Part shown: positions 2,020 to 6,923 of the stretch, piece after piece | Layout of the letters: every line of letters starts with the position of its first letter | How positions within the stretch are numbered: position 1 is the stretch's first letter | Origin: a virus | Reading direction: 5' to 3' (one strand) | Length of the DNA: 22,916 bases | IMG/VR virus record: IMGVR_UViG_3300034374_008104 | Location: 1 to 22,916 of that record | Translations under genes and position numbers: made by a program | Notes under the pieces: model-generated | What the model saw: the letters and a program-made list of their open reading frames with translations, nothing else | Told to the model about the DNA's origin: nothing | The model's database searches: none

Positions 2020-2406
2020 ATGAGCCAAGGAGAGGAGTATAAACCAACAAAAGAAGATGAGGCACTAATTAGAAAGTATGCTAATGAGGGGATGCCCGCA
2101 CAATTAATTTGCTATAAACTTGGCAAGTTTACATCCGTTAATACTCTTAAAAAATATTTTGCAAAAGTGTTAGATCAAGCAAAGCTGGTTCAAGAGTATG
2201 AAATGGGCAAAAATTTATATACTAGAGGAAAGGAAGGGGATAACACCGCTGCTATTTTTTGGCTTAAGACGCAATGTCCTGATAGATGGAGAGAAACCCA
2301 ACACATTGTGCAAGAGAATGCGCACAAGTTTATTAGTAATGAAGTTTTAAGTGATGAAATGTTTGAAAAAAAATATTTAATAGATGACGAAGGCAAAAAT
2401 AAATAG
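2020..2406 (+). CDS. terS: Putative terminase small subunit (DNA recognition)
   Basis: This 128-residue protein begins with a helix-turn-helix-like region at about residues 10-50 (DEALIRKYANEGMPAQLICY, then TSVNTLKKYF). A segment at about 64-95 with GDNTAAIFWLKTQCPDRWRE follows; the pattern GD-x-x-A-x-FWLKT-x-x-P-x-x-WRE is typical of small terminase or Terminase_2-like DNA-packaging proteins. The length fits the family. It lies immediately upstream of the large subunit and overlaps it by 23 nt, the classic order for a packaging operon. The gene is preceded by AAAAAAGGAA. In the family, the small subunit recognises the packaging site and regulates the large subunit's ATPase. Confidence 0.8.
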   Translation: MSQGEEYKPTKEDEALIRKYANEGMPAQLICYKLGKFTSVNTLKKYFAKVLDQAKLVQEYEMGKNLYTRGKEGDNTAAIFWLKTQCPDRWRETQHIVQENAHKFISNEVLSDEMFEKKYLIDDEGKNK

Positions 2407-4644
2407 AGATGAGATAGCTTGGAGTCCACAGCCGAAGCAGAAGATTTTGATTGATTGCCCTTATAGGGAGGTGCTTTTTGGAGGGGCGCGCGGCGGGGGA
2501 AAAGTAGTGGTATCTTAGGCAAATATGGGATTAAAGCGTTAAGATACCGATACACCAATGCTATTTTTTTTAGAAAAGAACTTCCACAAGCAGATGATTT
2601 AATTGAAGATGCTAGAGCTATTTATGAACCGCTTGGTGCTATATGGCGCGACCAGAAAAAAACATTTGAATTTCCAAATGGAAGCAGAGTTAGGTTTAGA
2701 CCACTTGAAAATGAAAGGGATGCAGAAAAGTATCAAGGACAATCTTTAACAGATTGTGCAGTAGAAGAAGCTGGAAACTATGCAGATCCAAAACCTATAG
2801 ATAAATTATTTGGTGCTTTACGTTCAAAGCATGGAGTACCTACACAGCTGATTATGACAGCTAACCCAGGTGGTGTTGGGCAATTGTGGATTAAAGAAAG
2901 ATTTATAGATCCAGCGCCTTTGGGTATGAAAACATTAACCCGCGAGCTTCCAAACGGACAAAAGCATAAGTATATCTACATACCTTCAAGGGTTCAAGAT
3001 AATCAGATACTACTACAGAATGACCCAAACTATATTAATAATTTATATTTAGTAGGTAGTAAGGAGCTTGTAAAAGCTTGGCTTGAAGGTTCGTGGGATG
3101 CAATAGAGGGCGCTTACTTTCCAGAGTTTAGTGTTGATAGACATGTAATAAAACCTTTTAAAATACCAGAAAGATGGAAGCGTTATATAGGCTATGATTG
3201 GGGATATTTTAGTGACAGTGCTTGCGTTTGGATAGCTATTAGCGATGGTAGAGATGATAATGGAGAGAAAGTTAAATATCCAAAGGGTAGTGTTATAGTT
3301 TATAGAGAGTGGATAGAAAGCAAGCTAAGTAATGAGGATCAAGCAAAAAAGATATTAGAATTAAGCGCAGGGGAGGAAATAGAAATAAGGGCAGCAGACC
3401 CTAGTATCTTTGCAAGTCAGGGCGGGCCAAGTATAGCTCAACAAATGCAAGATTGCGGGCTAACTTTTCATAAAGCAGATAATGCTAGGATTGCTGGTTG
3501 GTCTCAATTAAGGCGGCGCTTAAATCCAGGGGAGGGGCTAACACCTATGATTTATTTTTTTGATACTTGCACCACTGCTATAGAAGCAGTTGCAGCAGCG
3601 CCAGTTTGTAAAAAAAATGCTGAAGATTTAGATACAACATTCCCCAATGACCATGTCTGTTTTAGTGGTTCTACATTAGTAGATACGGCAAATGGACAAA
3701 TTCCTATAAAAGACCTAGTTAACAAACAATTTAAGGTAAATACTAGATGTGGTTATAAAAATGCCATAGGAGCAAAAACAGGAAGGAAAAGACTTTACAA
3801 GGTTGCGCTAAGTAATAAAAAGAGTTTTAATGCTACTATAGATCATCGGATACTTACAGGTATGGGATGGAAAGAAGTAGGTGAATTAAATATTGGAGAT
3901 AGGTTAATTGAAAGTAATAGAAATATCAGAAACAATACAAGAGTTCGATGGGCTAAGATATTACAAATGCGGTCATTATTTCAGCAGGCAAGTAAAAGGT
4001 GTCAAAGGTGGTGTCAGATTACACAGGAAAGTATACGAGCATCATTTTGGGAAAATTCCAGCAGGTATGCATATTCATCACAAGGATGGGAACAGGTTCA
4101 ACAATCAAATAGAGAATTTAGAAATGGTAAGTGCAAAAGCACATGTGGCCAAGCACATGACAAAAGCAAGAAGGCAACGAACAAGAGAGCATATTTTAGC
4201 TCAACAAGACAAAGCAACAGCTTGGCATCGTTCAGAGGAGGGGAGGGCTTGGCATCGGAAACATGCAAGGAAAGTAGCCGACAATATAAAATCTGTAAAA
4301 AAAGAATGTTACTGGTGCCAAAAAGAATATTTTACAAAAGCACCAAAGCTTTCAGTATTTTGTCATCAAAATTGCAAAATGCGAGCAAGGACACGAGGGT
4401 TATTAGCATCCGACCTAAAGGCATTGATGACGTATTTTGTTTATATGTACCAGAATACAATGAATTTACAATTGAAGGTGGATTAGTAGTTCATAATTGT
4501 GATGCATTGCGCTATAGCCTAATGGAAAATCTATACGTTCAAACAGACTACCACAAACCAGAAGAATATGCTACAAAAGGAAGTATAAACATTAGTAATT
4601 TAGTTCAAAAACACAAAGCGAAAAACAGAAAGTCTAAAATATAA
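2384..4644 (+). CDS. terL: Terminase large subunit, frameshifted and intein-interrupted
   Basis: The packaging motor ATPase/nuclease begins at ATG 2384 (after an in-frame TAG) with MTKAKINRDEIAWSPQPKQK and reaches Walker A GGARGGGK at residues 33-40. The frame-0 reading then stops at TAG 2516-2518 after 44 residues. A -1 shift after AAA 2501-2503 restores SSGILGKYG and everything downstream. Further motifs are Walker B CAVEEAG (Glu128/129), coupling motif TANPGG, nuclease YDWG (Asp272), ADPSIF, and the final nuclease motif DHV/CDALRY. The last is split by a 280-residue intein (precursor residues 426-705). The mature extein is about 473 residues, normal for TerL. The gene overlaps terS by 23 nt and the portal gene by 1 nt. 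The ATG at 2854 is an internal methionine before TANPGG and leaves out the ATPase core. The break is a programmed -1 frameshift or a missing A in the sequence. Confidence 0.9.
2480..2548 (+). promoter_or_regulatory. Candidate programmed -1 ribosomal frameshift signal in terL
   Basis: Three elements stand in the arrangement known from bacterial dnaX-type -1 frameshifting. (1) A slippery heptamer G GGA AAA at 2497-2503, in the correct phase (zero-frame codons GGA AAA); it differs only in its last base from the lambda tail-gene heptamer GGGAAAG. (2) An SD-like GGAGGGG at 2480-2486, ending 10 nt before the heptamer. (3) A perfect 9-bp stem, GGTATCTTA 2509-2517 with TAAGATACC 2540-2548 and a 22-nt loop, starting after a 5-nt spacer. 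The zero-frame stop at 2516-2518 overlaps the stem. Slipping back one base joins Walker A Lys to SSG, as expected for the family. A deletion in the G5A4 homopolymer is the alternative. Confidence 0.6.
3658..4497 (+). other. Intein in the TerL nuclease domain
   Basis: In the TerL frame, residue Cys1 (TGT 3658-3660) opens a typical block A, CFSGSTLVDTANG. Block B is NATIDHRILTGMGW with the conserved Thr-x-x-His. The C-terminal blocks F and G are DDVFCLYVPEYNEFTIEGG and VVHN followed by Cys+1 (4498-4500). Removing the 280 residues joins PNDHV to CDALRY and rebuilds the terminase nuclease motif, so the boundaries are well determined. Between blocks B and F, this frame encodes about 165 residues rich in Ser, Gln, Arg and Lys with no recognisable domain. 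That stretch is the out-of-frame shadow of the HNH gene. Phage terminases are known intein hosts. Splicing needs the Cys1, the block B His, the terminal Asn and the Cys+1, and all are present. Confidence 0.92.
3908..4486 (+). CDS. HNH homing endonuclease nested out of frame in the intein
   Basis: A complete 192-residue HNH endonuclease is encoded in the +1 frame relative to TerL and its intein. The core at about residues 38-83 has LHRKVYEHHFGKIPAG, HIHHKDGNRFNN and IENLEMVSAKAH. A basic middle follows, then a zinc-finger-like Cys pair set (Cys134, Cys137, Cys152, Cys156). The N-terminal EFDGLRYYKCGHYFSRQ resembles the start of free-standing phage HNH enzymes. It starts at TTG 3908, directly after an in-frame TAA (3905-3907), with GGAG at 3895-3898 placed 9 nt upstream, so independent initiation is plausible. 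The stop at 4484-4486 lies inside intein block F/G coding, so its last 25 or so residues are overprinted on the conserved intein C-terminus. It probably cuts intein-free terL alleles to promote homing. Confidence 0.88.
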   Translation: MKVIEISETIQEFDGLRYYKCGHYFSRQVKGVKGGVRLHRKVYEHHFGKIPAGMHIHHKDGNRFNNQIENLEMVSAKAHVAKHMTKARRQRTREHILAQQDKATAWHRSEEGRAWHRKHARKVADNIKSVKKECYWCQKEYFTKAPKLSVFCHQNCKMRARTRGLLASDLKALMTYFVYMYQNTMNLQLKVD

Positions 4645-6923
4645 TGCAAAGTTATAAAAAATATACGTTTGGTTATTGGGAAGAGGAGCTAAGAAAGTCC
4701 AAAGAAGATAGAGAGCAGTTTGAAAACGATGCAAAGCGCTCAATTAATTTATATAAGAAAAAATACAAGCTAGATGATTGCGCTAGAACTATGGGCATTT
4801 GGTGGCAGACTGTAAATACTCTATTACCCGCTTACTTTTCAAAAATACCAAAAGTAGATGTTGAGCTTAGAAAGAAAAGAGGAGGCGAGCTTGAAAGGTT
4901 AGCAGCGCTTGCATGGGAGAATGCTACACAATACACCATAGAGGAAGATTTTGACTTTTATTCAGTTGGACACCCAAGTGTTTTACAGTTTATTTTAGCA
5001 GGACAAGCCGTCCTATGGGCTAGGTATTCAGCAGAGTTTGAGAAAAAGCCATACAAGTATGCTTTAAATGATGAAGATGAGCGTGAAGGTGCGTATGAAG
5101 AGAACGGTGTACGCTATATTGAAGAAGAGATAGATGAAGTTGCTAGTGAAAAAGCAGTATTAGATTTTATAGGTTATCAGGATTATAGAGAAAGCATAGC
5201 GCGAACTGATAATGAGATAAGTTGGAGAGCTAGGCGGGCTTTTATGAGTAGAGAGCAAGTAAGCTCAAAATTTGGTGAAGAAGAGGAAAATAAATTTAAT
5301 TATAATAGCTATCCAGATGACATTAACGCAAAAGATGTAGAGCAAAAGTATGAGGGGAAAGCAGCAGTTTGGGAAATTTGGTGTAAAGATACAAATAAAG
5401 TTTATTTTTTGCATCATGGTAAAGAAAAGTTTTTAAAAGAAAATGGTGTGCCAGTTAGCTTTAATAACTTTTGGCCTTGTGTGGTCTTAAATGCAAACAG
5501 TGACCCTGATAGCATTACACCATTTGGTGACTATGTAGAGCTAGAAGATTTAATTTTAGAAGTTGAGCGCTTAACCACTCGAATTCATGCAACACTGCAA
5601 GCAATTAGAGCAAACTTTATGTATGATAAGGCTTTAGGTGATAAAATTGAAGATATTTTATCAGATGACTTAAAGGGCATACCAGTTAATAAACCTACAG
5701 CAAATAAAACACTAGCAGATAGCATAGAGTTTTTAAATGTAGACCCTTATATAAAAACATTAACAGTATTAACGCAAAGTAGAGAAACAGCACTAAACAA
5801 ATTATATGAAGCTTGCGGGGTTAGTGATTTAATTAGAGGAAATTCAATTGCAATTAAAACAGCTACAGCTAACCAGCTTGAAGCAAATTACAGTAGTTTA
5901 AGATTTTCAGTTAGAAGAAACCAAGTGGCTAGGTTTTTTATTGATGCAATAGAGAAAGTTGCACAAATTGTTGTTTCAAAATTTTCAGATGAGCACCTAT
6001 ATTTAATTTGCTTTGGAGAAGAACTTGCACAAGAAATTCCAGACCCAGCACCGCAAATGATTCAAGGCCCACAAGGGCCTGTGCCAGTGCCAACGCCGCC
6101 GATGCCACCCGCAGTAAAATTTCAAGCAATCTTAGAGCTTCTTAGAAGTGATGTTATTAGAAACTTTAAGTTAGATATTGAATCAGACAGCTTAACACAA
6201 TTAGACCAGCGTGGAGAGCGCCAAGAGCGTGTGGATGTTATGGCTTCAAGTGGGCAATTCTTACAGCAGCTGCAACAATTAATAGCACAAGCACCAAGCA
6301 CAGCAGATTATGCTAAGTCAATGTTTAAATTTGTAATTAGAAGTTATGAAGCTGGAAAGGAAATAGAAGGCGATATGATGAAGGCTTTAGACGCTATGGT
6401 GCAAGAGCTAATGCAAGCTAAACAACAACAAGCACAAGATCCTAATGCACAAGCTAATATGCAGGCAATGCAAATAGCGCAGATGCAAGCCATGACTGAA
6501 GAAAAGAAACTACAAGCAAACTTAACAGTAGAGCAAGCAAAACTAGCAAGTGATGCAGAAGATAGAATGCTAAAAGCACAAGAGCTTGCAGTTAAAGCAG
6601 AGGAAGCTAGGCAAGATCATGCAGTTGAGTTAGGCAAGCTTCAGATAGAATTTGCCAAGCTAAAAATTACAGAAGAGGACAAGGCAGCAAACATTCAATT
6701 AAAAGCAATGAGTGAGGCTTTTGACCAAGATTTAAAAACAGCATACTTAAGACTTGATGAGTTTGGAACGGTAGCAAAAGAGAACGAAAAGCTAATAGAA
6801 GAAAAAAGGCTAGCGGGTAAAGAGAGAATAGAAAATTTAAAATTTGCAATTAGTAGCATGAAGGATGTAAATAGAGCAGACACTACAGTTGAGCGACGTA
6901 TGAATGATAATTTTATTCAATAA
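4644..6923 (+). CDS. Portal protein (P22-like, podovirus type)
   Basis: This 759-residue protein follows terL directly (TAATG overlap), the expected place for the portal. The portal is the dodecameric head vertex ring through which the terminase pumps DNA. The N-terminal part (EEELRKSKEDREQFENDAKR, then MGIWWQTVNTLLPAYFSKIP) and the central stretch TPFGDYVELEDLILEVERLT with ATLQAIRANFMYD match my memory of P22-like podophage portals, which are of similar size (about 700-800 residues). A Pro-rich linker lies at about residues 470-490. The C-terminal 200 or so residues are a long Gln/Ala/Met-rich coiled coil, consistent with the barrel extension seen in P22. The ribosome-binding site is weak, so translation is probably coupled to terL. 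Confidence 0.85.
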   Translation: MQSYKKYTFGYWEEELRKSKEDREQFENDAKRSINLYKKKYKLDDCARTMGIWWQTVNTLLPAYFSKIPKVDVELRKKRGGELERLAALAWENATQYTIEEDFDFYSVGHPSVLQFILAGQAVLWARYSAEFEKKPYKYALNDEDEREGAYEENGVRYIEEEIDEVASEKAVLDFIGYQDYRESIARTDNEISWRARRAFMSREQVSSKFGEEEENKFNYNSYPDDINAKDVEQKYEGKAAVWEIWCKDTNKVYFLHHGKEKFLKENGVPVSFNNFWPCVVLNANSDPDSITPFGDYVELEDLILEVERLTTRIHATLQAIRANFMYDKALGDKIEDILSDDLKGIPVNKPTANKTLADSIEFLNVDPYIKTLTVLTQSRETALNKLYEACGVSDLIRGNSIAIKTATANQLEANYSSLRFSVRRNQVARFFIDAIEKVAQIVVSKFSDEHLYLICFGEELAQEIPDPAPQMIQGPQGPVPVPTPPMPPAVKFQAILELLRSDVIRNFKLDIESDSLTQLDQRGERQERVDVMASSGQFLQQLQQLIAQAPSTADYAKSMFKFVIRSYEAGKEIEGDMMKALDAMVQELMQAKQQQAQDPNAQANMQAMQIAQMQAMTEEKKLQANLTVEQAKLASDAEDRMLKAQELAVKAEEARQDHAVELGKLQIEFAKLKITEEDKAANIQLKAMSEAFDQDLKTAYLRLDEFGTVAKENEKLIEEKRLAGKERIENLKFAISSMKDVNRADTTVERRMNDNFIQ

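Follow-up and report, generated by a model that had tools for sequence, protein, structure and literature searches.

The DNA analyzed here (the window) is the whole of the 22.9-kb virus record IMG/VR IMGVR_UViG_3300034374_008104 (22,916 nucleotides), in which terS, terL, and portal genes stand in a row. The gene for the large terminase subunit, TerL, carries an intein of 280 residues inserted in frame at NDHV|CDALRY, and within the stretch encoding that intein lies a second gene, for an HNH homing endonuclease, which is read in the +1 frame. The features concerned are the following, where pLDDT is the predicted local distance difference test score of AlphaFold2 models.

2384-3657, + strand: terL N-extein, beginning at ATG 2384, in the 0 frame until 2503 and then in the frame of 2509 onward, with an apparent -1 shift at 2497-2503
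3658-4497, + strand: intein, 280 residues, continuous in the TerL frame, with C1, TIDH (block B), H279-N280, and 0 stops
3658-3912, + strand: Hint splicing domain, N-terminal half (residues 1-85), pLDDT mostly >90
3895-3898, + strand: GGAG, a candidate ribosome-binding site by sequence match, 9 nucleotides ahead of the HNH start
3908-4486, + strand: HNH homing endonuclease gene, 192 residues from a TTG start, in the +1 frame with respect to the intein, HNH_3 PF13392 (E value, 3.1e-16)
3922-4383, + strand: linker in the intein frame (residues 89-242), overprinted on the HNH gene and for the most part predicted to be unstructured (pLDDT mostly <50)
4076-4105, + strand: HNH catalytic stretch, H57-H58-K-D ... 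N65-N66
4307-4375, + strand: putative zinc finger of the HNH protein, C134, C137, C152, and C156
4387-4497, + strand: Hint domain, C-terminal half with blocks F and G (residues 244-280), pLDDT mostly >90
4498-4644, + strand: terL C-extein (CDALRY...) with its stop, of which the first ~90 bp were co-converted, as judged against the intein-less allele L206 described below

Read in the TerL frame, the insertion has the anatomy of a cis-splicing intein. Its boundary codons are TGT (C1) at 3658-3660 and AAT (N280) at 4495-4497, block B (TxxH) is present as T60-I-D-H63 in alignment A3, the C terminus is H279-N280, the +1 residue is Cys (TGT, 4498-4500), and the Hint fold is obtained from one continuous open reading frame (ORF). 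Profile matches were found in the same frame to Pfam Intein_splicing (E value, 1.1e-9) and intein_Nterm TIGR01445 (8.8e-7), and upstream to the terminase large subunit profile phrog_2 (4.8e-33, covering 2509-3657). Among mini-inteins the trimmed model most closely resembles Npu DnaB (4o1r; Z score, 20.5; root mean square deviation, 1.8 Å over 128 residues). An initial annotation made from the sequence alone had placed the intein blocks and a clean extein junction in the TerL frame, and these results bear it out. The insertion was also considered as an intron, a reading that was rejected when a search of 2300-5000 against Rfam gave no match to an intron RNA.

The HNH gene occupies the ORF 3908-4486, and its TTG start directly adjoins a TAA at 3905-3907, as originally described. 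In alignment A5, which is alignment A4 minus all rows from the phage-record collection, H57, H58, and N66 of the catalytic stretch and all four cysteines of the putative zinc finger are invariant. The predicted structure of the protein is of good quality (mean pLDDT, 89.4). The sole match of its profile in the PDB is I-HmuI (1u3e; E value, 3.5e-5), which is also the best match by fold, although a moderate one (Z score, 7.8 over 77 residues); HNH motif and fold together place the protein with the I-HmuI-like HNH_3 homing endonucleases. I-HmuI is thus the closest solved structure by both sequence and fold, but it resides in a phage group I intron, whereas no intron RNA was found at 2300-5000 of the window.

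The coexistence of two open frames over this region is not expected by chance. When the synonymous codons of the HNH gene were shuffled in 2,000 trials, 13.3 stops were expected in the intein frame, where there are 0, and none of the 2,000 shuffles was free of stops; the third frame, with 19 stops against 17.7 expected, behaved as the shuffles predict. The initial annotation had remarked on this open frame and on the featureless linker that it encodes opposite the HNH gene, and the low pLDDT of residues 89-242 agrees with the latter. Two loci from other IMG metagenomes (L001 and L002; L numbers designate loci throughout) carry inteins that differ from that of the window at 0 of 840 nucleotides, which excludes assembly error. 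The two other frames of free-standing HNH homologues contain 7.3 and 16.5 stops on average, indicating that the linker frame is the derived one, opened atop the HNH gene rather than the reverse; the suggestion that the intein frame was overprinted on a preexisting homing gene is thereby upheld.

Selection in the two frames was compared using 10 independent pairs of the window's class, with the rate of changes that are silent in HNH but replace an intein residue (SN) set to 1, transition bias fixed at 2, and codons having more than one change excluded. Changes replacing residues in both proteins occurred at a relative rate of 0.079 (NN) and those replacing residues in HNH only at 0.182 (NS); changes silent in both frames occurred at 1.46 (SS). 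These low rates of HNH-replacing changes point to strong purifying selection on the HNH protein (omega, about 0.1). The intein-frame linker is, by these estimates, weakly constrained (about 0.4 to 0.7) apart from a ban on stops: no stop-creating changes were seen in the 10 pairs, where about 21 were predicted from the SN rate.

To place the arrangement among relatives, the HNH protein was used as a query against viral contigs, phage records, and species genomes, which yielded about 157 different homologues. A homologue was called nested if it lay inside an ORF open in another frame well past both ends of the gene. By this definition 110 of the approximately 157 are nested out of frame, forming 80 clusters at 70% identity and 54 at 50%; no other state of this HNH family is as common in the collections searched. 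Both possible phases are represented, with 38 of the nested genes in the window's phase (intein +1) and 72 in the other (intein +2); from this we conclude that out-of-frame entry happened, or was shifted, more than once. The container is almost always a TerL intein: Intein_splicing was matched by 59 of 62 representative ORFs, and a single terminase family, phrog_2, by itself accounts for 51 of the 62. The junction residues C1 ... N followed by C, S, or T could be assigned at 102 loci, a few of them weakly. At one locus (L174, 1865-3655) two terL inteins only six extein residues apart each hold a nested HNH gene, in opposite phases.

No in-frame HNH was found within a terL intein. The sole in-frame copies are two distant matches at L031 (1620-7696), which lie in a large ORF with an intein-like C terminus before KGARDKRYQELLPLRGK (topoisomerase-like) and provide an in-frame contrast. 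Relatives at 40 to 57% identity keep the same frame relation as the window, which contradicts both a pair of compensating indels and an enzyme that is always in frame in relatives, the two outcomes by which the initial annotation might have failed. An error of assembly, or an in-frame intein in decay that has acquired two such indels, could draw on the second frameshift in terL at 2497-2503, but independent metagenomes carry the element unchanged, and dozens of diverged relatives, among them three named phage records, show this kind of frame relation; we regard this explanation as extremely unlikely. The three records are those of Tetrasphaera phage TJE1, Rhodobacteraceae phage LS06-2018-MD07, and Acinetobacter phage Highwayman, in which the locus is annotated only as terminase large subunit.

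Comparison with an intein-less member of the same phage lineage, L206, revealed the signature of mobility. The two are 98.2% identical over 3.6 kb upstream and 97.0% identical downstream, and the empty site of L206 (about 3574-3694) reads NDHV|LDSVRY. Identity between the window and L206 is mostly 95 to 100% up to the junction, falls to 57 to 67% over ~90 bp 3' of the intein, and then returns mostly to 90 to 100%. The +1 residue is Leu in the empty allele and Cys in the occupied one, so that the nucleophile required for splicing comes with the co-converted flank. The inteins of the window, L001, and L002 are identical, and their flanks differ by 0.5 to 2.4%. Together, the empty allele, the ~90-bp co-converted flank, and the zero divergence of the intein indicate, at the level of sequence, recent homing. 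A motif search located the uninterrupted site at 38 loci.

Members of the same HNH family also occur in other layouts around terL. In fractured terL genes, IntN and IntC are on separate ORFs with HNH between them (L182, 1368-3852; L123; L180; L177; L113; L076; L083; L116; L086; L090; and L105; with L074 and L075 in part). At L199, L200, and L183 HNH lies directly 3' of a terL carrying a complete intein, and elsewhere it adjoins an intein-less terL (L035, L037, L038, L044, L112, L120, L097, L126, L024, and others). The first of these, at 2501-3010 of Brevundimonas phage Poludnitsa (ON529862), is an unannotated HNH gene between terL and portal. L275 (3593-4000) has a mini-intein of 136 residues at the same site, from which HNH is deleted in frame; because it retains SELQN, an intein-frame remnant of the overlapped region, it appears to represent a secondary loss. 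Parsimony requires 22 or more changes of layout on a tree of 143 HNH proteins; the tree was made by a quick method and has many weak forks, and it supports only repeated change of arrangement.

These layouts bear on whether the protein might be a packaging partner of TerL, like the HNH proteins encoded beside terL in some phages, rather than a homing enzyme. Free-standing family members do adjoin terL in named phages, but a phage 97 to 98% identical to that of the window lacks both intein and HNH, L275 keeps its intein without HNH, the best structure and sequence match is the homing enzyme I-HmuI, and the sweep and co-conversion fit homing; we therefore consider a packaging role very improbable.

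The arrangement in the window differs from each of the known systems that it resembles. Fractured-gene split inteins, reported by Dassa et al. in 2009, are said to consist of two trans-splicing ORFs with a separate endonuclease gene at the usual endonuclease site. The window shares with them a separate endonuclease gene at that site, but its intein is one continuous ORF, open throughout. In the dCTP deaminase intein of cyanophage CL131, a large intein for which splicing was shown, the Hint domain is likewise interrupted by an HNH_3 nuclease, but there the endonuclease is in the intein frame (PMC6293099), whereas in the window it is a separate gene in the +1 frame. The closest parallel in frame organization is the ShiLan domain, an insertion in a phage methylase that contains an out-of-frame, GTG-started HNH gene and for which selfish homing has been proposed (PMC11855218). 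In both cases an HNH gene lies in a different frame within an insertion that is open in the host frame, but the ShiLan insertion showed neither intein splicing motifs nor a Hint fold (PMC11855218), while the window has a complete intein in TerL, with both the Intein_splicing match and the Hint fold.

The ShiLan domain also suggests that the intein studied here might no longer splice and be tolerated much as the methylase insertion is, since that insertion combines an out-of-frame HNH and an open host frame with no detectable splicing domain (PMC11855218). We judge this very unlikely: the window lacks none of the splicing residues and yields a confident Hint fold, relatives have kept the splicing motifs, and packaging normally depends on TerL. 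The initial proposal of a third arrangement thus holds insofar as a continuous intein contains an independent, out-of-frame HNH gene, but the arrangement is no one-off, being the commonest state of the family and occurring in both phases, and an out-of-frame HNH gene in an open insertion was already known without an intein (PMC11855218). We found no description of an out-of-frame endonuclease gene in a continuous intein in the open full-text literature, the coverage of which is incomplete, so that an earlier description is possible; the nested layout is apparently common yet undescribed.

The explanation that we favor, and hold to be very probably correct, is that the locus is a mobile cis-splicing TerL intein with an intact, separately translated, out-of-frame HNH gene in its loop. 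Translation in the TerL-intein frame would continue across the HNH gene and yield a largely unstructured linker, after which the two Hint halves would fold and splice, restoring TerL. The HNH protein would be made from its own start, within the loop where inteins usually hold an in-frame endonuclease domain, and would cut terL genes that lack the intein, at the sequence encoding DH-x|x-DA-x-RY. Repair would then copy the intein together with about 90 bp of 3' flank, bringing the +1 Cys, a copying that the comparison with L206 displays. As to origin, a free-standing HNH gene of the type found beside terL may have entered the loop out of frame, whereupon selection would have cleared every stop from the intein frame. 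From the anatomy we infer that the nuclease can be made without splicing.

Several considerations weigh against this explanation. Because the census started from this HNH family, it does not give frequencies for inteins in general, and an open frame was itself part of the definition of "nested." Splicing, independent translation of HNH, and cleavage of the empty site are steps that we infer, unlike the motifs, the frames, and the co-conversion. Translation of HNH is the least clear of these. The initial annotation noted a ribosome-binding site, and a GGAG does lie 9 nucleotides before the TTG, but such sites are weak in the window's own clade: of the 38 inteins in the window's phase, only 9 have a Shine-Dalgarno match of 4 nucleotides, under the background of 52%, and the HNH start in most members of the window's class is an ATG without a good ribosome-binding site, in place of the window's TTG. 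Finally, the host terL requires a -1 frameshift at its Walker A motif, and the TerL of this lineage may therefore be unusual or damaged.

In the other phase, matches of at least 4 nucleotides occur in 50 of 72 cases against a background of about 52%, and an enrichment of Shine-Dalgarno sequences over the nested HNH genes as a whole was not clear. A promoter for HNH alone was rejected, promoter-like matches being no more frequent than in shuffled sequences. A sequence resembling the terL target, its third frame giving DTLRY against CDALRY, lies immediately before the HNH start at L008 (about 509-535) and at further loci belonging to the window's class. The likeness is striking in one clade, where such a sequence is the top match in 16 of 38, but the sequences there are related; in the other phase the count is 4 of 55, and the window has no such sequence. 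It is possibly an operator or a scar of ectopic homing.

The frame break in terL has features of its own. Walker A is split at 2497-2548 between GGARGGGK in one frame and SSGILGKYG in the -1 frame, the break falling at the heptamer G GGA AAA (2497-2503), which is followed by a 5-nucleotide spacer and a 9-bp stem in which 2509-2517 pairs with 2540-2548; the overall fold energy around the break is unremarkable (z, -0.9). The break is common to the window, L002, and L206, and the predominance downstream of synonymous over nonsynonymous differences (17 versus 4) argues that terL is functional. We consider 2497-2548 a candidate site of programmed -1 frameshifting within a gene essential to packaging. 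The overlap of the HNH and intein frames, together with this apparent use of a -1 frameshift elsewhere in the same terL, could suggest that ribosomes enter and leave the +1 frame by programmed frameshifting and so make HNH as an intein fusion, the element then being an ordinary large intein. That is scarcely probable, given the TAA at 3905-3907 in the HNH frame right before the start, the occurrence of both phases among relatives, and a start codon at the same place in relatives and free-standing homologues.

Beyond this locus, we think it rather likely that overprinting of an intein frame on a free homing gene is a general and recurrent route by which terminase inteins gain and lose endonucleases. 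The route would operate in both phases, interconvert with fractured split inteins, downstream HNH genes, and HNH-deleted mini-inteins, and uncouple expression of the nuclease from splicing of the host protein. The layout adds a third genomic organization of inteins to the two known from fractured split inteins and from endonuclease domains in frame. It makes the origin of mobile inteins testable, both in how a loop takes up a free endonuclease gene while an essential host protein stays intact and in how split inteins come about. It offers a natural case of two entangled genes under unequal constraint. Annotation of such loci as a single terminase ORF, as in the three named phage records labelled terminase large subunit, misses many homing genes.
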